Below, piece after piece: positions 19,698 through 32,094 of a stretch of DNA of 64,000 nucleotides. Position 1 is the first letter of the stretch, and the number at the start of each line of letters is the position of its first letter. Below the pieces are notes generated by a model, which ran no database searches, had not been told where the DNA came from, and worked only from the letters and a program-made list of their open reading frames with translations. Source of the stretch: Blastopirellula sediminis (lineage in GTDB: Bacteria > Planctomycetota > Planctomycetia > Pirellulales > Pirellulaceae); contig NZ_JAJKFT010000010.1 in the NCBI RefSeq assembly GCF_020966755.1, positions 2,754,720 through 2,818,719 on the forward strand, given 5' to 3'. The position numbers were made by a program, and so were the translations under genes.

Positions 19698-20357
19698 TTA
19701 GGGAGACGCGATCGAATCGATCCGGACAATCCGGGCTCGGCCGTCGTCGTCAATCATCGCGACGGTTTCGGCTTGGATCGCATAAGGCCCCAGCGTAAAG
19801 CCGCCGAAGCTGAACTCACTCGCGACCGGGTAAGCCGAACGCGCCAACACGGCATAGAAGTAGTTGGGATTGTGAGGGTCGGCGTTGGGGTCGAAGATCA
19901 CGGTCGGCTGCACCTGGGTGATCGCTCCGAAGACGAGCACGCCTCCGCTCGACGCATTTTGGTTGCCATTGCCGTTGGAATGATGGTTCAGGCTAGGATC
20001 GTGCAGCGAGAAAGCGCTCCCGAGTACGGTATTGCTCGCAGCAAAGTCCGCCGCGACCTGGCGAGCCGCCAGCGTCGAGTTGGGACCATGGTGATCGGCG
20101 TGTGGATTTTGGGGAGGATGGGGATGCGGGTGAGGGCCGTGATGATGGTGGTGATGGCCCCATTCGATCACAGCGGCGAGAGCGGCCGCTTCCAGGGCAT
20201 CTTCCACTTCGGCCCGAGCCAACCACAAACGTCCCGTTTCGATAGTCATCAGCAGCCCGATCAGCGCGAGCGGCAGAAAGACGATCAGCCACAATACAGA
20301 GACCCCGCGACGCGAACGGCGTGCGCGAGATCGACGATTTGGGGCGATGATCGACAT
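19698..20357 (-). CDS. TadG-like pilus assembly pseudopilin with histidine-rich segment
   Basis: 219 residues. The N terminus is Arg-rich and leads into one membrane helix (SVLWLIVFLPLALIGLLM, residues about 20-38) followed by TGRLWLARAEVEDALEAAALAA, the TadE/TadG pattern; the usual Glu of TadE pilin-like signals is replaced by Trp. Residues about 67-95 are extraordinarily His-rich: six consecutive His, then alternating Pro-His and more His. The remainder (about 95-215) is a globular domain ending EDGRARIVRIDSIASP-like. It probably sits in the envelope as part of the Tad apparatus. It is co-directional with a TadE-like gene 35 bases upstream. Confidence 0.82.
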   Translation of the reverse strand: MSIIAPNRRSRARRSRRGVSVLWLIVFLPLALIGLLMTIETGRLWLARAEVEDALEAAALAAVIEWGHHHHHHGPHPHPHPPQNPHADHHGPNSTLAARQVAADFAASNTVLGSAFSLHDPSLNHHSNGNGNQNASSGGVLVFGAITQVQPTVIFDPNADPHNPNYFYAVLARSAYPVASEFSFGGFTLGPYAIQAETVAMIDDDGRARIVRIDSIASP

Positions 20358-20953: not shown

Positions 20954-21160
20954 GCGGATCGTGACGCGTAGGGGAGTATGGTGGCCAGCGACAACTATTC
21001 ATTAACGTGAGCGGGCTTCGCCACGTCAACTATTTACCGCCGTATCGACGCAAGTTTCGCCATATAAGTCGGTTATGCACATATTTTAACTGATGGGAAG
21101 TTGAAAGCGGTTGTCCGCGTCATTACCGTAGGGATTAAGCCAAAGAGCGCATTTGGCGAA

Positions 21161-21189
21161 GATTCGCTATCTTTGCAGGATAGCGAATC
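21161..21189 (+). promoter_or_regulatory. Perfect 11-bp hairpin in the leader of the first pilin gene
   Basis: GATTCGCTATC and GATAGCGAATC around a seven-base loop, ending 44 bases before the ATG at 21234. No T-run follows. It may control translation or mRNA stability of the pilin. Confidence 0.6.
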
Positions 21190-21233
21190 CTGGATGTTCC
21201 TCCCCACCCAGCAACTACGGATTTCGCGCGAAC

Positions 21234-21419
21234 ATGAATTTTTTGAAATCTCGATTGAGCAAACTTGCCGCGGATCAGGATGGCGGCGTGTTTGTCGAGT
21301 ATCTGATCCTCCTCACATTGATCGGGATCGGGGCGATTGCAGGCTTGGCGACCGTGCGCGGAGCGCTATTGAACGAGTTGATTGATCTGGCGGATGCGAT
21401 TTCGCAAATCCAGATCTAG
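21234..21419 (+). CDS. flp: Short Flp-type pilin
   Basis: 61 residues from ATG 21234. A basic N terminus (MNFLKSRLSKLAADQDGG) leads to VFVEYLILLTLIGIGAIAGL, the Flp/class III pilin pattern. Cleavage between the two Gly would put Glu at +5 and Tyr at +6, as in known Flp pilins processed by TadV. The mature part is about 45 residues and ends LADAISQIQI. It shares GLATVR...NEL.DLADAI with the four longer pilins downstream, so all five are related. It is the best candidate for the major pilin. A hairpin lies in its leader. Confidence 0.85.
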   Translation: MNFLKSRLSKLAADQDGGVFVEYLILLTLIGIGAIAGLATVRGALLNELIDLADAISQIQI

Positions 21420-21491
21420 CGGAGGCATTCCGCAGTTTGCGGATGCGTCTCTTCTTACTCGTTCATCGGTTTAGCGGAATTTGCTGCCTGT

Positions 21492-21980
21492 ATGCGCGCC
21501 TTGATCTCAAACACGGTGTCGACGCGAAAGCGATTGCGCTCCGGCGTTCAAACGTTGGAGTTGGTAATCGCTTTTCCACTGCTCTTGATCACCTCGCTGG
21601 CGATCGTGCAGTTCGCTGCGCTCTCGGCGTTTGAAGCGACGGTCGAAGCGGCCGTCGCCGAAGCGGCTCGCGAAGCGGCGAAGACGATCGACCCGATGGA
21701 CGCACCGCAGGCGGCGCTCGTCACCTTCAATCAGGCCATGCAGTTGCATGGACTCTCGACCAATACCCCCAAGATCGCCTTGGCGGTTGATCAGGTCGGC
21801 AAGCACACGGTATACGGCGATCCGATGTTCGCCCCTTCGCCGGGTTCGGTGATGGTGGGAGAAGTTCGGGTGACCGCCGCCATATCGCTGCAAAGCGCGC
21901 CGACGCTGAATTTGTTGAAAACGTTCGGGCTCGATTTCGACCAACGAACTATTGAGACGACCCATGTTAGCGGCGCCTAA
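21492..21980 (+). CDS. TadE-like pilus assembly pseudopilin
   Basis: 162 residues. After a basic N terminus (STRKRLRSG) comes VQTLELVIAFPLLLITSLAI with Glu at +5 after Gly, a textbook TadE/TadF prepilin segment, then FEATVEAAVAEAAREAAKTI. The C-terminal domain (VGEVRVTAAISLQSAPTLNLL) resembles that of the gene at 20393. It lies 72 bases after the short pilin and 16 bases before the GT-C-like gene, so it is probably part of the pilus operon. TadE-type proteins are minor pilins needed for assembly. Confidence 0.85.
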   Translation: MRALISNTVSTRKRLRSGVQTLELVIAFPLLLITSLAIVQFAALSAFEATVEAAVAEAAREAAKTIDPMDAPQAALVTFNQAMQLHGLSTNTPKIALAVDQVGKHTVYGDPMFAPSPGSVMVGEVRVTAAISLQSAPTLNLLKTFGLDFDQRTIETTHVSGA

Positions 21981-21996
21981 GCAGGAGCACCTTGGC

Positions 21997-23583
21997 ATGG
22001 ATCCGGCCAACGACAAGTCGAACGACGCTTTGCAACCAGCGGCGACGCCGGTATTGAGCGATCGATACGCGCTCTCGGCGCTCGACTTCGCCGTCGTCAG
22101 CTTCTTTGTCGCCGCTTATCTCCTGTTTTACTACTTGCCGTTACCGACCGTTGGAGTTTGGCGGGATATCACGGTCGGGCGAACGATTCTGGAAGAATCT
22201 CAGCTGCCGCAACATCCGGTTCAACTTCCGCTCGCGGCGACCAGTTCGTACCGTGCGACCAATTGGTTGGCCGACCTGTCGTTGGCGCTGATCAATCGGG
22301 CCGGCGGACCGGAAGCGATTTCGCTCGCCTCAACGCTGGTCGCCTGCGGATTCTTGCTGTTCGTCTACTTCGTGCTTTGTCGCGGCGAGGCGCCGAAGTG
22401 GCTCAAGCTGGTCGCGGTCGCACTTGCGGCGGCGACGCTACTGTTCCAGTGGCAAGGGCTCACGCCGGCGATGGCTTCGTCGGTACCATTGGCTCTGTTG
22501 CTGGCGCCGCTGGCGATTTTCGCTCGCTGGCGAGAAGCGGAGGGAACGCCCTCGATCTGGACCTGGATCATCGCCCCCATCGCGATTGTCGCGTGGGCCA
22601 ACACGCACTGGACGTTTATCGCCGGTCCGCTGCTAATCTCGGCGATCGCCAAGGGAGTCGCCTACGACTCGCTGTTTGCCGGCAAAACGCTGAGGGAAAC
22701 GCTCGGCAGCCGCAAGGTGCAAGCGTGGGCCTGGCTCGCGCAGCTTTGCTGGTTCGCAACGCTCCTCAATCCATGGGGCTTTGGCGTTTGGGCCGAAGCA
22801 TTCGAACAAATTGTCCGCCCGCTCGACGGTTCGGCGCCGCTGGTCTTGGCGTCTGGTCCTGGCGTGATTGTCGCGCTGCTGGTTGCGGCGCTCGCCTTTC
22901 TGCTCCGACGCTCCAAGGCGCCGGTCCATGGCGGCGACGTCATGCTGTTTGTGGTCGCGACGATTCTGGCCGCTTGCAATACGCATTTTGCGCTGACGCT
23001 GGTTGCGGTGGCGACGATGGTCTGTTTGCCGATGACGGTGGGCATGTTCCCGCAAAGAGAAGCCGCCAAGTCGCCTGTCTCCACCGAAAAGAACGAAGAG
23101 CCGCGTCCGCTACGATTCGCCTTCACGCTGTTGTCGCTGCTGGCGATCTGGATTGGTTTCGCGCTTAGCCCGATCAGCGCTTCGGTCTTGGGAGGAACTC
23201 CGCGGTCGCTCGCCAAAGCGATCAATGATCCGCCCTTGGGCGTGGTTCGTTATCTCAATGAACATCCGCGTGAGCGATTCATCTTCGCTCCGGTCGCGTG
23301 GAGCGACTTTATCGCCTTTGCGACCGTCGATTCGCCGGACATGTTCGCGACGTCCGACTTTGACCGGCTGCCGCAGCAGGCGAAGTTCGACTATCGCGGA
23401 TTGGTCCAAGGGGGCGCGCAGTGGCAGCGCATTCTCGACCGGTACGACGTCGACACGCTGGTCATCGACAAGCGAACGCAAAGCGAGTTCGCAACGCAGG
23501 TCGTAGGGGACCTGAACGCCGAATGGGAACTGGCCTGGGAAAGCGATCGCGCATTAATCGTTCAGCGGAGGATCGCCGGATGA
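21997..23583 (+). CDS. Polytopic membrane protein resembling GT-C glycosyltransferases, embedded in the Tad locus
   Basis: About 528 residues from ATG 21997 (GGAG eleven bases upstream; a frame from 21952 would overlap the previous gene). Some ten membrane helices. The first external loop reads VWRDITVGRTILEESQLPQH and later SYRATNWLADLSLALINRAG, the layout (acidic residue, 'G..IL....LP.HP', then W-L-D) seen in GT-C-fold transferases of planctomycetes. The C-terminal 130 residues are soluble (RYLNEHPRERFIFAPVAWSD, RYDVDTLVIDKRTQSE), as in that class. I infer, without proof, a lipid-linked sugar transferase, possibly acting on pilins. Its stop overlaps the next start. Confidence 0.72.
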   Translation: MDPANDKSNDALQPAATPVLSDRYALSALDFAVVSFFVAAYLLFYYLPLPTVGVWRDITVGRTILEESQLPQHPVQLPLAATSSYRATNWLADLSLALINRAGGPEAISLASTLVACGFLLFVYFVLCRGEAPKWLKLVAVALAAATLLFQWQGLTPAMASSVPLALLLAPLAIFARWREAEGTPSIWTWIIAPIAIVAWANTHWTFIAGPLLISAIAKGVAYDSLFAGKTLRETLGSRKVQAWAWLAQLCWFATLLNPWGFGVWAEAFEQIVRPLDGSAPLVLASGPGVIVALLVAALAFLLRRSKAPVHGGDVMLFVVATILAACNTHFALTLVAVATMVCLPMTVGMFPQREAAKSPVSTEKNEEPRPLRFAFTLLSLLAIWIGFALSPISASVLGGTPRSLAKAINDPPLGVVRYLNEHPRERFIFAPVAWSDFIAFATVDSPDMFATSDFDRLPQQAKFDYRGLVQGGAQWQRILDRYDVDTLVIDKRTQSEFATQVVGDLNAEWELAWESDRALIVQRRIAG

Positions 23584-24842
23584 GCGTGACCAATTCCAGT
23601 CCGCGGCGCGGGATGTCGCCCAGTCTGTTCATCCTGGCGCAAGTCGTTTTGCTGGCGACGTTGTCGACCGGGATCGCTTGGGCCCTGTCGAGCGATCATC
23701 AGGCGAGCGTCCCGAGTTTGCCGCGCCTGCGAAATGCGCCGGAGCTGGTCGGCCCGCAGTACGACATGCGGGAGCTGATCACCGACGACCAACTGCGAAT
23801 GGTCCTGGTTCGGCTGCGGCCTCGTCTGCGACACCAGCAACCGAAGATCAATCATGTCGACCACGCGCTCCGGTTCTGGGGAGCCGATGCGAAGTTCGCC
23901 GATCCTGAGTGCCTGTCGGGCGAAGAGATGCGGCGGATGCTGACCAACATGGACGTCTTCCATGAGTATTGGGGAGACGCGACCCGCGATTTGATCACGC
24001 CGGGCGAATCTGGCTGGGGCGTGCGAACGCAGCAAGGCGCCGCAACGGCGAGCCACGTCGATCACACCCTTGGCACGCTGGCCGAGATCGGCACGCCGCT
24101 TGATTTTCCGATCAAGTCGCACGATGCGACGTTGACGGTGCGTGACCTGCTTGTCGGCGCGCTTCGCGACTTCCGGTTGAATCAACAAGAGTACGAGTGG
24201 ACGACGATCGCGGCCGCTTCGTATGCGGCCGACGACGGAGCGTGGGTTTCACGCGAAGGAGAGCGAATCACCTTCGATCAACTGGCGCAGCGGATCATGC
24301 GGCAACAGTGGGTGCAGGGAGTTTGCTACGGCAATCACCGCTTGTTCACCTTGGCCGCCTTGTTGCGATTGGACGAACAAGTCGGCCTGTTCCAAGACGC
24401 AGCGACGCGGGACGAGATCATTGCGCATCTCACCGAAGCGACGCGGCGTCTGGTCGCGAGTCAAAACGAGGCGGGCTACTGGGATCAAAACTGGTACGAC
24501 GGCACGCAAACGCCGGTCGACGAAGGGCTGTCAGATCCGCTATCGCGGCGGCTGCTAGCCACGGGGCATGCGCTGGAATGGTGGGCGATCTCCCCCGCCG
24601 AGGTGCAGCCTCCCCGAGAAACGAAGATCCGCGCCGGCCAATGGCTAGCGACGGAAGTCGAGAAGATGAGCGACGACTCGATTCGCGACAACTACACCTT
24701 TTTAAGCCATGTCGGCCGAGCGCTGGCGCTGTGGCGGGGAGCTTTGCCCGCTGATCAGTGGAGTCGTCTCGAGTGCGACCAGGCCCTGCAAATCAACGCT
24801 ACTCCTGCGGGCGAAAATGAAGATTCGCCCCCTTCCCAATGA
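23580..24842 (+). CDS. Membrane-anchored protein of unknown function, possibly alpha/alpha-toroid
   Basis: 420 residues from the ATG overlapping the previous stop (ATGA), so translation is coupled to the GT-C-like gene. One membrane helix (FILAQVVLLATLSTGIAWAL, about 15-35) anchors a large extracytoplasmic helical domain. Motifs such as GVCYGNHRLFTLAALLRLDE and NEAGYWDQNWYDGTQ resemble repeats of helical-toroid proteins (terpene cyclase or glycosidase folds), but no catalytic DDTA, DXDD or similar motif is visible. The last gene before four pilin genes, it could modify or hold a polysaccharide or the pilins. I do not recognise a named family. Confidence 0.7.
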   Translation: MSVTNSSPRRGMSPSLFILAQVVLLATLSTGIAWALSSDHQASVPSLPRLRNAPELVGPQYDMRELITDDQLRMVLVRLRPRLRHQQPKINHVDHALRFWGADAKFADPECLSGEEMRRMLTNMDVFHEYWGDATRDLITPGESGWGVRTQQGAATASHVDHTLGTLAEIGTPLDFPIKSHDATLTVRDLLVGALRDFRLNQQEYEWTTIAAASYAADDGAWVSREGERITFDQLAQRIMRQQWVQGVCYGNHRLFTLAALLRLDEQVGLFQDAATRDEIIAHLTEATRRLVASQNEAGYWDQNWYDGTQTPVDEGLSDPLSRRLLATGHALEWWAISPAEVQPPRETKIRAGQWLATEVEKMSDDSIRDNYTFLSHVGRALALWRGALPADQWSRLECDQALQINATPAGENEDSPPSQ

Positions 24843-24853
24843 GGTCCGCTAGC

Positions 24854-25261
24854 ATGCGACTATTAAATCGCCTTTGGTCCGACGAATCGGGTTTCGTCAA
24901 CTCGGCCGAGTTGCTATTGTTCAGCACGATTGTCGTGATCGGTCTGATCGTGGGTCTGGCGACCCTTCGCGACGGGATCGTGCAAGAGTTGGGCGACACT
25001 GGGCAAGCCGTCGGTCAACTTGATCAATCTTACGCAGTGGAGTTTCAAGACGGCGGACATCTACAAGTCATGGGGAACCAAGTCATCGTCGACAAGACGT
25101 ACGGCGGCGTTCATGTCGTGACTGGCTTTCGAAACTTTCGGTATATCGACCGACCTGATCTCGGCGACGGCCCAGATGTCGCGGGACAACCACCAGGCGG
25201 AATCGTCATCGGCGGCAACGGCACAAATGAAAGCGGCATGTTGCCGAATCCCGTCCCCTAA
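24854..25261 (+). CDS. Long Flp-like pilin, paralogue 1
   Basis: 135 residues from ATG 24854 (GAGG nine bases upstream). The prepilin segment is SDESGFVNSAELLLFSTIVV; after cleavage behind Gly, Glu would be at +6 rather than +5. The helix continues IGLIVGLATLRDGIVQEL, then GQAVGQLDQSYAVEF, shared with the next three genes. The C-terminal 75 residues are a soluble, Gly-rich domain ending NESGMLPNPVP. It has no cysteines. Probably secreted through the Tad system as a pilin or minor pilin with an exposed head. Confidence 0.8.
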   Translation: MRLLNRLWSDESGFVNSAELLLFSTIVVIGLIVGLATLRDGIVQELGDTGQAVGQLDQSYAVEFQDGGHLQVMGNQVIVDKTYGGVHVVTGFRNFRYIDRPDLGDGPDVAGQPPGGIVIGGNGTNESGMLPNPVP

Positions 25262-25375
25262 CCAGGGAGACGTTGTGCCTGTTCCGCGCAACGTCGTTTA
25301 GAAGAAAAATCAAAGAAGCCTGCTGGTCAATGCCGTTAAAGTCATCACAATCTACGCTGCCTACCAGATAGAATC

Positions 25376-25765
25376 ATGAACCAACATAAAAGCACCTTCC
25401 GATTGATCGCCACTCGGCCGTGGTTACAGCTCTGGCGCGACGAGCGCGGAGTCGCTTCGGCGTATGCGCTGATCTTGGTCGCCGTGATCCTGATTTTGGG
25501 GGCGGTGGTTGGTCTGACCAACCTGCGTGACCACATCGTTCAGGAGTTTGGCGATCTCGGTGTGGCGATTGACAGTCTCGATCAATCGTTCGGCTATCAG
25601 ATCACCGTGACTCCGCAGATGGGACCGCCGCAGGTCGTGGTGTCGGCGCTGTACATCGATCAAGACGAACTCGGTTGGAGCGATCCCAATGGCCAGGCGC
25701 CTGCTGGTTTGAGTTTCGCCCCCGGCTTCCCTGGCAGTCAGGGAGAAGACGGTCCGATTCCCTAA
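25376..25765 (+). CDS. Long Flp-like pilin, paralogue 2, lacking the conserved Glu
   Basis: 129 residues. RDERGVASAYALILVAVILI: after Gly the +5 residue is Tyr, and no Glu occurs in the helix start, unlike its paralogues. The rest keeps the family pattern (GAVVGLTNLRDHIVQEFGDL, SLDQSFGYQI) and a proline-rich tail ending QGEDGPIP. Glu+5 is normally needed for assembly into type IV filaments, so this may be a cap, regulator or dead subunit. The ribosome binding site is weak, which could mean low expression. Confidence 0.78.
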   Translation: MNQHKSTFRLIATRPWLQLWRDERGVASAYALILVAVILILGAVVGLTNLRDHIVQEFGDLGVAIDSLDQSFGYQITVTPQMGPPQVVVSALYIDQDELGWSDPNGQAPAGLSFAPGFPGSQGEDGPIP

Positions 25766-25943
25766 CGAACATCCCTTGTGAAAAAGTTTGGTCGAGCGAC
25801 GTCCCCTATCGTCTCGCGGCCCCACCCAAAGCAAACGATTCACTTGCTTGCCGAAAGTCGAATGGCGGACGAGCGGCGGCAACTTGAGCGTTGTTGATAT
25901 TCAAGTTTTTTTCGATCCGCCGCAAATTGAGGAGTTTTCTGCA

Positions 25944-26300
25944 ATGCAACTGTTGAAGCGATTGTGGAACGATGAAGCTGGTTTCATCGTCTCCACCGAA
26001 TTGATTTTGATCGCGACCATCGTCGTGATTGGTCTGATCGTTGGCTTGGCCGCCGTTCGTGACGCAGTGACCGCCGAATTGTCGGACGTCGCCGGCGCGA
26101 TCCAAGAAATGGATCAGAGCTACATTTTCTACGGAGTCGTAGGGCACTCGGCCGCCGTGTCGGGCAGCGATTACGCCGACCAGAAGGACTTCTGCGATAC
26201 GACGGAAGCCACTCCTGGCACCATCGACAACTGCATCGTGATCGCCGCTGGCGGCAACACGAACGAACAAGGCGTTCTCCCCACTCCGAACAATCCCTAA
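25944..26300 (+). CDS. Long Flp-like pilin, paralogue 3 (tandem duplicate of the next gene)
   Basis: 118 residues with GAGGAG eleven bases before the ATG. NDEAGFIVSTELILIATIVV has Glu at +6 after Gly. The helix goes on to IGLIVGLAAVRDAVTAELSD and EMDQSYIFYG. The head domain contains two Cys (in DFCDTTEATPG and IDNCIVIAAGG), spaced to form one disulfide, and ends NEQGVLPTPNNP. It differs from paralogue 4 at only about six residues. The duplication also covers about 70 bases after the stop, but not the upstream region. Confidence 0.85.
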   Translation: MQLLKRLWNDEAGFIVSTELILIATIVVIGLIVGLAAVRDAVTAELSDVAGAIQEMDQSYIFYGVVGHSAAVSGSDYADQKDFCDTTEATPGTIDNCIVIAAGGNTNEQGVLPTPNNP

Positions 26301-26437
26301 TTTAGGGTTTGGAGTGCACGCATTCAGGAGCCTCCCTGTTATTCCTGATTGCGTCTAAAGAATCGAATCGAAGTCGCGACTTGGATGTCGCGAAGATTAC
26401 TTTCCGTATTTTCCCCAATGTTCTTGGAGAGTTTCTG

Positions 26438-26794
26438 ATGTCTTTGTTGAAGCGTTTGTGGAATGATGAAGCTGGTTTCATCGTCTCCACCGAATTGATT
26501 TTGATCGCGACCATCGTCGTGATTGGTCTGATCGTCGGCTTGGCCGCCGTTCGTGACGCCGTGACCGCCGAATTGTCGGACGTCGCCGGCGCGATCCAAG
26601 AAATGGACCAGAGCTACGTCTTCTATAGCGTGCGTGGTCACTCGGCTGCGGTCTCGGGCAGCGGTTACGCCGACCAGAAGGACTTCTGCGATACGACGGA
26701 AGCCACTCCCGGCACCATCGACAACTGCATCGTGATCGCCGCTGGCGGCAACACGAACGAACAAGGCGTTCTCCCCACTCCGAACAATCCCTAA
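26438..26794 (+). CDS. Long Flp-like pilin, paralogue 4 (tandem duplicate)
   Basis: 118 residues, nearly identical to the gene at 25944; the clearest changes are MSLL for MQLL, VFYSVRGH for IFYGVVGH, and SGSGY for SGSDY. It has its own GGAGAG ribosome binding site, so both copies seem to be translated. The unit length is 494 bases. High identity implies recent duplication or gene conversion. Variation limited to the stalk-head junction could alter subunit packing or surface properties. Same two cysteines, same Glu at +6. Confidence 0.85.
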   Translation: MSLLKRLWNDEAGFIVSTELILIATIVVIGLIVGLAAVRDAVTAELSDVAGAIQEMDQSYVFYSVRGHSAAVSGSGYADQKDFCDTTEATPGTIDNCIVIAAGGNTNEQGVLPTPNNP

Positions 26795-27032
26795 TTTGGG
26801 GTTCGGAGTACACGTATTCAGGAGCCTCCCTGTTGATCCTGACTGCGTCTAAAGAATCGAATCGAGAGATCGTCGGCGATTGGGTCGGCGGTCTCTCTTT
26901 CGACTTCTTTGGAATCAGGGAAGAATCTTTGCGCAACGGACGCGCAACTCATCGACTCTCGTATCGAGAGAGTTGGATGAGTGTTGAAACCAGAGCGATT
27001 CGTCGCTGTGATTGAACCAAGATGAGCCGATT

Positions 27033-27569
27033 GTGGACAAGCTGAACTTCGTCGCCATCCTTTTGGTCGCCCTCTTTACGGCGGTTGCGTTTTACGTCGA
27101 CCTGAGGTCGGGCAAGCTTCCCAATTGGTTGACGATGCCGGCGCTGTTGATCGGCCTCCTGTTTCACGCGGCGGTCAGCGGCTGGGGCGGTCTGCAGCAT
27201 TCGCTGTTGGGCGCTGTAGTCGGTTTCGCCTTGCTATTCGTCCTGTTTATCATCGGGGGAGGCGGAGGCGGCGACGTCAAGTTTATGGCGGCGCTCGGAG
27301 CCTGGTTTGGCCCCGTGTTGATTGTGATTGTATTTATCGTCAGCGCCGTTTTAGCGCTAGTCATTACCGTCGCCATATTTGTGGGGAAGGTGATGTTTGG
27401 CGCCAAAACGGACAAGGAGGAGCCAGCGGAAACCGGCGACTCGAATCGGAAAAAGCTCGATATGGCCCGGCAAACGCTCCCTTACGGAGTGCCAGTTTGT
27501 CTGGCTAGTTGGGTTTTTCTGCTACTGAAACTGGTCGCCCTGTTGCAGACGCCGCTGGAAAACGGCTAA
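27033..27569 (+). CDS. tadV: Prepilin peptidase TadV/CpaA
   Basis: About 178 residues from GTG 27033 (VDKLNFVAILLVALFTAVAF); a TTG at 27012 is also possible. Type IV prepilin peptidase of the short TadV class: the first aspartate is in YVDLRSGKLPNWLTMP and the second in GGGGGGDVKFMAALGAWFGP, the GxGD motif. Six membrane helices are predicted. It cuts Flp and TadE-type signals at the inner face of the membrane. It follows the four long pilin genes, which fits them being its substrates, even though they shift the Glu by one position. Confidence 0.92.
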   Translation: MDKLNFVAILLVALFTAVAFYVDLRSGKLPNWLTMPALLIGLLFHAAVSGWGGLQHSLLGAVVGFALLFVLFIIGGGGGGDVKFMAALGAWFGPVLIVIVFIVSAVLALVITVAIFVGKVMFGAKTDKEEPAETGDSNRKKLDMARQTLPYGVPVCLASWVFLLLKLVALLQTPLENG

Positions 27570-27748
27570 TCGGCGGCAAATGCCCCAAAATATCGGTAGT
27601 TCCCTGAGTGGAAATCAGGGCCAGTAATTAAACTAGGAAACATTCCAAACTTTGGGAAACGACAGGAAGTTGTCCCGCTTACTCGGCATGGATCGCCGCT
27701 GAATTCAGATTTCGAAACAGCAACGATCGCGCTAGCGGAGCGAGCACT

Positions 27749-28672
27749 ATGTCCCGGTTGAGTCCTGGAACCTTATTATTGGGCGTTGTCGCCATCATGT
27801 TCGGGTTGTTGTCCGCTTATGTGGTCCGCAAGAACATGATGCGAGAAACGCCGGCGCCGGTCGTGGAAACGCCTCCCCCGGTCCAGACCTTCGTCGTGCC
27901 GAAAGCGGCCGCCAATCTAATGGCGGGACGCACTCTTACGATGGGCGACGTGGTGATCTATCGCTACACGCAAGAGCAACTTGACGCCGAGCCGCTCCCC
28001 AGCGGCTACATGGTGAGCTCCGAGCAAATCATCGGCCGCACCCTGAAGCAGGAACTGGCCGAGAAGTCGGTCTTTACGCCGGACATGTTCTATCCGGAAG
28101 GGACCGGCCCCGGCATCGTCCAGGATCTGGAGCCTGGCCAGCGAGCGTTCACTGTTCGCGTCGAATATGACGAAGCGGTCGAAGGGTTCGCGCGTCCTGG
28201 AACCAAAGTCGACGTCCTCTTCCGCGTCGACGCCGACGACCAGAACGAGTTGCCCCAGACGACCGTTACGCTGCTGCAAGACGTCAAAGTCTTGTCGTTC
28301 GACGCGAGTCCTTCGTCGCTCAATCCGATTCCTGATCCGCGGACGCAACGTCAACGTCAGACGGCGACTGTCACGCTGGCGGTTCAGCCGCAGGATGTGA
28401 TCAAGCTGCAAGTCGCCGAGAATCACGGCACCTTCGCTCTGGCGCTCGTATCGCCGGAAGGGAACGCCGTTTCGTACGACGGAGCGCCCCGCACGTTAGC
28501 CGAATTGCTCGAGCGTCGACCGCCGGCCCGGACGATGATGCGGGTCTACCGCGGCGCGAACATCTCGGAACTGGAGTTCCGTGAGAACGCCGCCGGCCGC
28601 GAGCAATTGTTCCGCGCTTCGGCGACGCAAGACGCAGCGGACGCTGCGGCGGACGTCGCCGTCGCCAACTAG
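27749..28672 (+). CDS. cpaB: Flp pilus assembly protein CpaB/RcpC
   Basis: 307 residues. One N-terminal membrane helix (LLLGVVAIMFGLLSAYVV), then a periplasmic SAF/AFP-like domain (VPKAAANLMAGRTLTMGDVV, VRVEYDEAVEGFARPGTKVD) and the RcpC repeat region (TVTLAVQPQDVIKLQVAENH). CpaB links the secretin to the inner-membrane platform. About 40 bases separate it from tadA. In many tad loci cpaC and cpaE lie between these two genes; here cpaC has moved to the minus strand at 33899 and no cpaE is present. Confidence 0.92.
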   Translation: MSRLSPGTLLLGVVAIMFGLLSAYVVRKNMMRETPAPVVETPPPVQTFVVPKAAANLMAGRTLTMGDVVIYRYTQEQLDAEPLPSGYMVSSEQIIGRTLKQELAEKSVFTPDMFYPEGTGPGIVQDLEPGQRAFTVRVEYDEAVEGFARPGTKVDVLFRVDADDQNELPQTTVTLLQDVKVLSFDASPSSLNPIPDPRTQRQRQTATVTLAVQPQDVIKLQVAENHGTFALALVSPEGNAVSYDGAPRTLAELLERRPPARTMMRVYRGANISELEFRENAAGREQLFRASATQDAADAAADVAVAN

Positions 28673-28710
28673 TCGAATCTCCTTTTCTCACCTTCGTAGG
28701 CAACTGCGCG

Positions 28711-30159
28711 ATGATCATGTCGAACCCCGCCGCGCCCGACCGTAAAGTCGACCAGGCTGAACTGGAGTTCCAGCGTCTGAAAACGTCGCTGCATGAAGAG
28801 ATGGTCGACTCGCTCGACTTGGGCGCCGTGACCAGCCGCAACGAAGAGGCGATTCGCAGCGACATTCGCAATCTGTCGAGCAAGTACTGCCAGCGCAAGA
28901 ACCTGAAGCTGGATGACGAGACGCGTCGCCGGCTCGAAAAAGAGCTCGACTACGAATTGTTCGGGCTCGGTCCGATCGAACCGCTGATGAAGGACCCGAC
29001 GATCAGCGACATCCTGGTCAACGGCGCCAGCGAAGTTTACATCGAACGTCACGGCCAGTTAGAGCTAACCAACATTATTTTCGCCGACGACGCCCATGTG
29101 CTGCGAATCATTCAGCGCGTGGTGGGGCGGGTTGGTCGCCGGATCGACGAAGTGAGCCCGATGGTCGACGCGCGTCTGCCGGACGGATCGCGTGTGAACG
29201 CCGTTGTGGCGCCGCTGGCGCTCGGCGGACCGAAGATGTCGATTCGCCGCTTCGGCATCGAACATCTCCACCTGAAAAACTTGATCGCGACCGACTCCCT
29301 TTCGCAGGAGATGGCCGAATTTCTGCAAGCTTGCGTCGCGTCGCGGATCAGCTTTTTGATCTCCGGCGGTACCGGCGCCGGTAAGACGACCCTCCTCAAC
29401 GCTTTGTCCGCTTCGATTCCGCACGACGAACGTATCGTCACGATCGAAGACTCGGCCGAACTCTTGCTGCAACATCCGCACGTACTGGGGATGGAAACGC
29501 GTCCGGCCAACGCCGAAGGCGCCGGCGCCGTCACGCAACGCGACTTGGTTCGCAACAGCTTGCGGATGCGGCCTGATCGCATCATCGTCGGCGAAGTTCG
29601 CGGGCCGGAAGCGCTCGACATGCTGCAAGCGATGAATACCGGTCACGAAGGTTCGCTGACGACGATTCACGCGAACGATTCGCTCGACGCTTTGGCGCGA
29701 CTCGAAATGATGGTGGCGATGACCGGCTTTGAACTTCCGGTCAAAGTGGTCCGCCAATACGTCGCCGCCGGGATCAAGCTGGTGATTCACGTCGCTCGCT
29801 TGAAAGGGGGCGTTCGCCGCGTTACCCGTATCGCCGAGATCCGCGAAGTGAACGAAAACGGCGACTACATCCTGGACGACATCTTCGGATTCCGTCAGGA
29901 AGGGCTCGACGATCATGGACGAGCCAAAGGACGCTTCTACGCGACCGGCTATTGGGCCGTTTGTCGCGAACGCTTCGCCGACGCCGGAATTGAGTTCGAC
30001 GAGAACGTGATGCGCAAGCATGAGTCGGGGCTGATTTACTCCAAGTACATCAACTCGGTCGGCCAGGTCGCGCTCTCAAGCGAAGAGTCGGGCGTGATCG
30101 ATCTGGCGGCAGACGCCGACTATCAATCCAAGTCCATTGATCGAGAGGAGGGAGCGTAG
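28711..30159 (+). CDS. tadA: Flp pilus assembly ATPase TadA/CpaF
   Basis: 482 residues. Secretion ATPase of the GspE/VirB11 superfamily that powers pilus extension. A helical N domain ([20 protein letters not shown]) precedes the RecA-like core: [20 protein letters not shown] (Walker A near residue 220), [10 protein letters not shown] (Asp box), [20 protein letters not shown] (Walker B) and [13 protein letters not shown] (His box). The C-terminal tail (about 60 residues) is longer than in the shortest family members. The stop codon overlaps the GTG start of tadB by one base. Confidence 0.96.
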
Positions 30160-31091
30160 TGCTCGATAATCTCGATCCCAACATCATGGCGTTGATCATC
30201 TTCGCCGGCGTCGCTTCGATCGCCGCCTTCATCTTTTTCGCGGTGAAGGAGTTGGCGTACGGCGGCGAGAGCGGTTCGTCCACTTCGGTCGGGCTGCGTC
30301 AGTTTCCGCCGCGGCGAACTTCGGCCGAAGGCTCATCGCTTGGCGAGTTCGATCATTGGCTGACGCGTACCTTGTACTTGTCTGGCGCCGATTTCGGGCC
30401 GACGATGGCCGTCACGTTGTTGCTCGCCGTTGGTCTGGTCTGCGGCACGGCGGCGTTCGTCCTGACCGAGGATCCGCTGGTCACGGGACTTGCAGTGGTG
30501 CTGGGCATCTTCGCCGGTTTGGGCGTGTTGATCTGGATCAAGCGTCGCCGTTTGCAGGCGTTTCAAACGCAGTTTCCGGGCGCCTTGGAATTGATCGCGC
30601 GGGCGGTTCGGGCCGGCGAAAGTTTTGAACAAGCGGTTCACCTGGTTGGCGAAACGAGCGAAGATCCGATCGGGATCGAGTTCCGTCGCGCCGCGAAGCA
30701 ACTCGACATCGGGCTGTCGGTTCCGGCGGCGATGGAGGGGATGGCTGATCGGGTCGAATTGATGGACGTCAAGATTTTCGCCACCACGATCAGCGTTCAC
30801 CGCGAATCGGGGGGCGCGTTGCCGGAGACGCTCGACCGTCTGGCGGCCGTGATCCGCGATCGCATGGCTTACCATCGACAGCTGCGCAGCATCACGAGCG
30901 CCGGGCGAATGTCGGCGACGATCATTTCGATGCTCGCGCCGCTGCTGCTGTTGTTCTTCCTGCTGTTCCAGCCGGAATACTTCAGCGAGTTCTTCTCTCA
31001 TCCGTGGGGACGCTACTTGCTGCTGTTCGCGGTCATCAGCGAAGCGCTTGGTCTTTATTTCGTCTACCGACTGGTGAAGGCCGACTACTAA
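30159..31091 (+). CDS. tadB: Flp pilus assembly inner-membrane protein TadB
   Basis: 310 residues from GTG 30159, with AGAGGAGGGA just upstream. Type II secretion F-domain protein: an N-terminal helix, a soluble region, a helix pair (TVTLLLAVGLVCGTAAFVL, VVLGIFAGLGVLIWIK) and the F domain (FPGALELIARAVRAGESFEQ, ESGGALPETLDRLAAVIRDR), ending with helices around LAPLLLLFFLLF. TadB and TadC together form the platform to which the ATPase binds. The tight overlap with tadA implies coupled translation. Confidence 0.93.
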   Translation: MLDNLDPNIMALIIFAGVASIAAFIFFAVKELAYGGESGSSTSVGLRQFPPRRTSAEGSSLGEFDHWLTRTLYLSGADFGPTMAVTLLLAVGLVCGTAAFVLTEDPLVTGLAVVLGIFAGLGVLIWIKRRRLQAFQTQFPGALELIARAVRAGESFEQAVHLVGETSEDPIGIEFRRAAKQLDIGLSVPAAMEGMADRVELMDVKIFATTISVHRESGGALPETLDRLAAVIRDRMAYHRQLRSITSAGRMSATIISMLAPLLLLFFLLFQPEYFSEFFSHPWGRYLLLFAVISEALGLYFVYRLVKADY

Positions 31092-31125
31092 GCGAATCGC
31101 CGCTACGTTGTGAGTAACCCGTTTT

Positions 31126-32094
31126 ATGAATAATCCCGCACTACTTGTCGTCGGCGCCTTTTTCGGCGTCACCCTGCTGATCTACCTGGTCGGCAGGTTG
31201 CTGCTGTCCAGTGATCGGAACCAGCCGGACGATATGTTGCATCCTGGCGCCAAACCTTCGATCGGACTCGGCGGAATGACTCGCGCGTTCGCCGGGATCG
31301 TGCCGATCTCGAAGTCGTCGTACGAGACGCTGCAAAAAGATATGGTCAAAGCGGGCTACTATCATCGCGACGCCGCCGACGAATTCCTGGCGGTTCGCAA
31401 CGCGGCGTTGGTTGCGTGGATCGTTTTTGTTGGCGTCGCCTTGGTGGCGATTCCCGACTTGAGCGAAGCGACGACCCAGCTGGTGCTGATCGTCAGCCTG
31501 GCGGTGTTGATTCTGATTTTCGCGATTCCCCGCGTTATCATCAGCTCGCAGGCGTCGGCTCGCGTCAATCGAATTCAACACGCGCTTCCCGACGCGCTCG
31601 ACATGATCACAATGACGACCACCGCCGGGCTGCCGCTGCAAAAATCAATCAAGCGGGTGAGCGACGAAATGATTCGTTCGCACGAAGATCTGGCGTGCGA
31701 ACTGATGATCATCGATCGTCAGGCCGAAACCGGCTCGCTGACCCAGGCGATTCAGAACTTCGCCAAGCGACTCGACATTCCGGAAGTGAACGCCCTCTCG
31801 ACGCTGGTGACCCAGGCGCAACGGATCGGCGGCAGCGTGGCGGGAGCGTTTCGCGACTTCGCCGACAGCATTCGTCGGACGCGTCGTCAGTTGGCCGAAG
31901 AGCGAGGGAATCAGAACTCGATCAAGCTGCTGATCCCGGTCATTTTTCTGTTGGCCCCGCCGATCTATATCTTGCTGCTGGGCCCATCCGCATTGCGGTT
32001 GCATGACTTTATGACGAACGGAACCCAAGAGGGCGGGGCGCTCGATCAGAACGTCTCCGCTTCACCAAGTCCGCTGGCGAATCGCTACGAGTAA
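31126..32094 (+). CDS. tadC: Flp pilus assembly inner-membrane protein TadC
   Basis: 322 residues, second F-domain platform protein. An N-terminal helix (LLVVGAFFGVTLLIYLV) and a central pair of helices are followed by ALPDALDMITMTTTAGLPLQ and IQNFAKRLDIPEVNALSTLV, then TRRQLAEERGNQNSIKLLIP and a last helix. It lies 34 bases after tadB and ends the plus-strand tad operon. It faces tadD, whose stop is only six bases away, with no visible terminator or REP-like element between them. Confidence 0.93.
   Translation: MNNPALLVVGAFFGVTLLIYLVGRLLLSSDRNQPDDMLHPGAKPSIGLGGMTRAFAGIVPISKSSYETLQKDMVKAGYYHRDAADEFLAVRNAALVAWIVFVGVALVAIPDLSEATTQLVLIVSLAVLILIFAIPRVIISSQASARVNRIQHALPDALDMITMTTTAGLPLQKSIKRVSDEMIRSHEDLACELMIIDRQAETGSLTQAIQNFAKRLDIPEVNALSTLVTQAQRIGGSVAGAFRDFADSIRRTRRQLAEERGNQNSIKLLIPVIFLLAPPIYILLLGPSALRLHDFMTNGTQEGGALDQNVSASPSPLANRYE

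Follow-up and report, generated by a model that had tools for sequence, protein, structure and literature searches.

Two adjacent genes in a Tad/Flp pilus operon of Blastopirellula sediminis, encoding a membrane protein with the predicted fold of GT-C glycosyltransferases (here GTC) and a membrane-anchored helical toroid (TOR), make up a conserved module that is tied to one type of pilin and comes from two families without a database name. With modest confidence, we favor the view that this pilus-dedicated module descends from an active GT-C transferase, and that in this lineage GTC is non-catalytic while TOR would be the conserved active or binding part.

The window, as we call the whole 64,000-nucleotide stretch of DNA analyzed, belongs to a 7.05 Mb genome with a same-genus relative, Blastopirellula marina DSM 3645, in the search set; the retrieved members of its order are mostly labelled Pirellulaceae or Pirellulales. 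According to the ORF list, Pfam and NCBIfam matches, and the gene order of relatives, the pilus operon occupies positions 21153–32094, where Flp pilins, A24 peptidase, CpaB, TadA, TadB, and TadC all occur together, the combination by which a Tad/Flp locus was recognized. It begins with a short Flp-like gene and continues, all on the plus strand, with a TadE-like minor pilin gene (21492–21980; PF07811 E-value 2.8e-4, slightly under the cut-off, with orthologues in the same place in relatives), GTC (21997–23583, 528 aa), TOR (23580–24842, 420 aa), four long Flp-type pilins, an A24 prepilin peptidase (27012–27569; PF01478, 5.7e-20), and CpaB/RcpC, TadA, TadB, and TadC (27749–32094), CpaB being identified by TIGR03177 (2.6e-39) and the other three by gene order and sequence. 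Pilin 1 (24839–25261) was assigned by alignment A3, pilin 2 (25376–25765) by blast relatives in the same place, with a PF04964 E-value of only 0.083, and pilins 3 (25944–26300) and 4 (26438–26794) by profile A3 (E-values about 1e-46). The last two are nearly identical and in tandem, a recent duplication present as one or two copies in relatives. Genes for a TadG-like protein and a secretin are divergent from the operon; the TadG-like minor pilin (19698–20357, minus strand) has a His-rich stretch (HHHHHHGPHPHPHPPQNPHADHHGPN) that is possibly metal-binding. Another long-type pilin lies distant from the operon (G000:C10:3703599-3703919, minus strand), with similar off-locus matches in another three members of its genus, and a second RcpC match is located on contig C4. 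The sole GTC match and the sole full-length TOR of the genome are the copies in the operon.

The initial annotation had described the two genes as translationally coupled and lying between a TadE gene and four pilins, and this arrangement was confirmed. Both ORFs recur in relatives as real, conserved genes, and ATGA overlaps between GTC and TOR at 23580 and between TOR and the first pilin at 24839 indicate that the coupling is real. The best start of GTC is the ATG at 21997, preceded by AGGAG about 10 nt upstream, with a TTG at 21952 as a possible alternative. Promoter and terminator signals did not exceed chance expectation.

We built AlphaFold2 models from homologue alignments (n = 32 for GTC and n = 29 for TOR). 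The GTC model (pLDDT 91) has a GT-C fold with 11 predicted membrane helices and a periplasmic C-terminal domain, in agreement with the GT-C-like layout and soluble C-terminal domain that had been proposed from the sequence. Its Foldseek matches include DPY19 (6e-7), STT3 (6e-6), and ArnT (6e-5), and VIA alignment gives a Z-score of 15.9 against STT3 (rmsd 5.2, 439 aligned, GTC residues 19–528) and 10.9 against PIG-U. Within the soluble domain (residues 405–528; 23209–23580, plus strand), residues 409–525 align with the globular domain at the C-terminus of archaeal AglB (3vu0; VIA Z-score 9.3, rmsd 2.4, 109 aligned). W435 and D437, which belong to the family motif W-x-D, are retained in the window protein; this motif reads WWGDW in many homologues as compared with WWDYG in STT3, PglB, and AglB. 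At the sequence level, the window GTC had no Pfam or NCBIfam match above cut-off, and hence no Pfam GT-C family, although one homologue matches DUF6541 (1.3e-5); profile searches of PDB sequences returned no relatives for either GTC or TOR.

The part of the earlier prediction concerning a GT-C periplasmic site fared differently: the fold is present in the model, but the site residues of most homologues are missing in the window clade. We scored nine polar or aromatic columns that are fixed in most GTC homologues (53, 57, 74, 156, 204, 278, 279, 330, and 334), calling a site intact with eight or nine of the nine residues and collapsed with five or fewer. By predicted helix order all nine would lie on the extracytoplasmic side, where their placement in loops and helices is compatible with a single pocket. 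The set resembles, by analogy, the catalytic set of GT-C enzymes, with D53, R156, E278, and R330 as putative parallels of D56, R147, E319, and R375 listed for PglB (PMC6801728). Scores among 56 homologues were bimodal, with 40 intact sites, 16 collapsed, and none between. The window GTC scores one of nine, H204 alone being kept, and its clade carries the substitutions D53G, H57D, D/E74P, R156T, E278G, W279S, R330H, and W334T; the columns are flanked by alignment anchors (W55, G61, LP70–71, P157, W200, N202, and NP258–259). In the first extracytoplasmic loop (residues 47–89; 22135–22263, plus strand), homologues have D-x-W-G-H and LPxxDP where the window has GVWRD and LPQHP, so that the acidic position following membrane helix 1, Asp in 42 of the 56 homologues, is Gly53; an acidic motif at this place is essential in various GT-C enzymes (PMC6801728). 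Likewise, the EL2 Arg and the later outer-loop Glu and Arg of most homologues are replaced by Thr156 (22462–22464), Gly278 (in the Gly-Ser pair at 22828–22833 that replaces Glu-Trp of intact-site homologues), and His330 (22984–22986), all on the plus strand.

This loss has happened repeatedly, as at least two independent events are forced on the homologue tree. Twelve collapsed sequences form one group (support 100/96) made up of the window genus and two other genera, all inside Tad operons. Among GTDB loci, which partly overlap the 56-homologue set, 51 copies are intact and 20 collapsed, with Flp/Tad genes nearby for 22 and 18 of them, respectively (Fisher 4e-4, with kinship ignored); site collapse is thus strongly associated with pilus-operon copies. 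The gene is nevertheless under purifying selection in the collapsed clade: dN/dS for four close pairs was 0.13, 0.12, 0.12, and 0.15, alongside 0.10–0.12 for TOR. A pseudogene is ruled out by the open frames together with these values of 0.12–0.15. At 50–56% TOR identity, GTC identity was 42% when both copies were intact versus 27% when both were collapsed. Since the site has been lost while the protein is kept by selection, the window GTC is most likely a non-catalytic partner. Across its homologues, the glycosyltransferase fold has been deprived of its site more than once, and TOR has stayed fixed.

The TOR model (pLDDT 90) is an (alpha/alpha)6 toroid preceded by a single membrane helix at the N-terminus (residues 14–41; 23619–23702, plus strand), consistent with the toroid-like, membrane-anchored helical domain initially suggested for this gene. 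Positive residues precede the anchor, and the toroid should therefore face the periplasm. VIA Z-scores of 17 to 14 were obtained for GH105/GH88, terpene cyclases, transcobalamin, and cellobiose 2-epimerase, no single family being ahead, and the best Foldseek matches were cobalamin carriers (E-values 0.03 to 0.1). The window TOR had no Pfam or NCBIfam family match. Several familiar assignments were rejected: GH88/GH105 is alike in fold, but its hhalign probability is 0.6% and only one member reaches an E-value of 0.22 in Pfam; the GlcNAc 2-epimerase (AGE) family lacks a Pfam match and has an hhalign probability of 0.2% with a two-sequence AGE alignment; and class II terpene cyclases share only the QW motif in their profiles, DxDD being absent from the sequence. 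Three motifs are invariant on the plus strand, namely C249-xxx-H253-R254 (24324–24341), the QW-like Q295-xxx-G299-x-W301 (24462–24482), and T328-G-H330-x-x-E333-W334 (24561–24581), and the invariant residues map to, or next to, six predicted helices expected to form the inner ring. All homologues checked keep 22 or all 23 of the site residues, whether their GTC is intact or collapsed, and R380 is the only one that varies, mainly in standalone pairs.

A strong connection of the pair with pili comes from its co-occurrence with long Flp pilins. A profile of these pilins matches 47 of 197 genomes in the order, and TOR is found at 140 bits or more in 37: both are present in 36 genomes, TOR only in 1, the pilin only in 11, and neither in 149 (Fisher p 1.7e-28, a figure inflated because kinship is ignored). 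Presence and absence are matched even within genera (6 genomes with both and 2 with neither in g2; 2 and 2 in g7) and inside families f2, f3, f10, and f12, and the co-occurrence persists where the pair and the pilins are not adjacent. All 11 pilin-only genomes are from family f17 (e.g. G017, G119, and G127), which makes them a useful comparison for the contribution of the pair. At least two RcpC copies were found in 35 of the 37 genomes with TOR versus 20 of the 160 without, indicating that the pair accompanies a second Tad locus. The pair is almost confined to genomes with one kind of pilus and therefore probably serves that pilus; the link to pilins drawn by the initial annotation from a single operon extends across the order, within two genera, and within several families.

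Beyond the order, a sample of the phylum gave clear orthologues in one other family of class Planctomycetia and a single weak match elsewhere. Members of that family often have a pair next to Tad genes plus a second, standalone pair. Almost all genomes with the two genes have GTC and TOR side by side, which argues for pairing beyond chance; at L074, two ORFs lie between them. One subgroup has the reversed order TOR-GTC, often 3′ of a sigma-54 activator gene; such an activator is upstream of TOR-GTC, or of GTC alone, in L086–L092, L096, and L097, which suggests dedicated regulation of this subgroup. At L074, L077, L070, and L076, the pair adjoins a PrsT-like TPR protein of 1150–1545 aa, and an EpsI/DUF3485-type protein of exosortase systems is also nearby at L074 and L077. 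Pairs far from pilus genes, including those of Planctomycetales, have intact sites, and no common neighbor of standalone pairs was found among the loci read; thus, something other than a pilin may have been the ancestral acceptor.

Taken together, we propose that GTC and TOR would act as a two-protein, periplasm-facing module for a second type of Tad pilus, the one with long pilins. In its ancestral form, GTC was most likely a catalytically active GT-C transferase, which would have transferred a sugar from a lipid carrier to an acceptor on the outer side of the inner membrane. Within the window clade, with its catalytic constellation lost, GTC most likely persists as a non-catalytic partner that would bind the lipid-linked substrate, the pilins, or TOR. 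Tethered by its anchor beside GTC, TOR may use its conserved putative pocket for chemistry or binding that the pilus needs; physical contact between the two, TOR as the active part, and the pilin as substrate are inferred. The original proposal of a pilin modification module built on a GT-C enzyme therefore stands in its folds, coupling, and pilin link; it does not stand for canonical glycosyl transfer by the window GTC, given the one-of-nine site and the failure to find a pilin sequon that tracks the state of the GTC site. The shared pilin motif [ND]QSY, considered as a sequon, has N or D regardless of that state. For other Tad systems, glycosylation of Flp pilins has been proposed and RcpC implicated in it (PMC12307814), so pilin glycosylation is possible in principle, yet the evidence for it at the window locus is weakened rather than strengthened. 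The pair thus probably serves the long-pilin pilus, but not via ordinary glycosylation in the window lineage.

Other explanations account for parts of these data. It is unlikely, in our assessment, that the window GTC still glycosylates pilins through other residues such as D57, with TOR trimming or presenting the sugar or acceptor. The GT-C fold is kept, as is the C-terminal domain with W435 and D437, D57 is found in 4 of 4 genus members, and the proposed RcpC-linked Flp glycosylation (PMC12307814) fits this reading, but D53, D/E74, R156, E278, W279, R330, and W334 are all gone, including the acidic motif essential in various GT-C enzymes (PMC6801728), sister genera sharing the operon do not have D57, and loss of the site goes along with much faster evolution of GTC relative to TOR. 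We are slightly more doubtful still that the pair targets surface polysaccharide or exported proteins other than pilins, with co-regulation as the only reason for its location among the pilus genes. The near one-to-one co-occurrence with long pilins, even when they are not adjacent, and the matched absence in two genera speak against this, although it would suit the standalone intact-site pairs of Planctomycetales and others and the loci with PrsT-like TPR and EpsI/DUF3485 exosortase-system proteins.

A non-enzymatic assembly or quality-control factor for the pilus, in which the TOR pocket would bind a peptide or pilin tail in the manner of transcobalamin and without chemistry, seems improbable to us. 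It draws on the cobalamin carriers at the top of the Foldseek results for TOR, the dispensable GTC site, and the order of the genes relative to the pilins and prepilin peptidase. On the other hand, the 22 fixed TOR residues, with many His, Glu, Arg, Cys, and Trp among them, look more catalytic than groove-like, and no conserved tail was seen in the pilins. A pilus-dedicated module with a non-catalytic GTC and a working TOR remains the reading that we prefer. Should TOR prove to be the active partner, it would represent a new family of pilus enzymes, and GTC would illustrate a GT-C protein without catalysis in bacteria; the intact-site paralogues offer a natural control for the role of the ancestral transferase. 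Tad pili rank with the most common filaments on cell surfaces, and modification of their pilins is poorly known. Pilus-linked modification genes and the GT-C fold are known, whereas the TOR toroid family is undescribed, and we found no description of the GTC-TOR pair in the literature searched.

Compared with characterized systems, GTC resembles the STT3/PglB/AglB and PMT/DPY19 groups in predicted fold over nearly the whole chain, and its C-terminal domain resembles that of AglB. Another shared trait, seen in most GTC homologues, is a D, R, E, R set spread over consecutive outer loops, but this set is gone in the window GTC, which has no sequence-family match and 11 helices as opposed to 13 in STT3. 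TOR has the same predicted fold as other (alpha/alpha)6 toroids (GH88/GH105, squalene-hopene cyclases, the GlcNAc 2-epimerase family, and transcobalamin; Z-scores 14–17), with no profile relation to GH88 or AGE, and it carries one copy of the QxxxGxW motif of terpene cyclases while missing their DxDD. Its distant paralogues are uncharacterised planctomycete toroid proteins (hhalign E-value 1.9e-54) with common CxGxHR and TGHxxE motifs, unpaired with GTC in the examples read; one of them (L147:6891-9743, minus strand) lies next to a small protein whose leader may be of the GG type and another that may be a C39-like peptidase, both assignments being made by eye. As in pilin glycosylation and RcpC-linked Flp modification systems, the GTC-TOR genes adjoin the pilins, although GTC differs by its lost site, and to our knowledge no GT-C and toroid pair has been described in those systems. 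That a modifying complex can contain a GT-C subunit without catalysis has a precedent in PIG-U of the GPI transamidase, which has the GT-C fold and is described as not an enzyme (PMC7801869); it is eukaryotic, its partner is unlike that of GTC, and the resemblance is by fold. A bacterial counterpart of PIG-U, in which a GT-C protein was decatalysed more than once, mainly after entry into pilus operons, to become a membrane platform for a tethered, new-family toroid enzyme that modifies long Flp pilins, is a tentative extension of our proposal that we consider rather less probable than the proposal itself.
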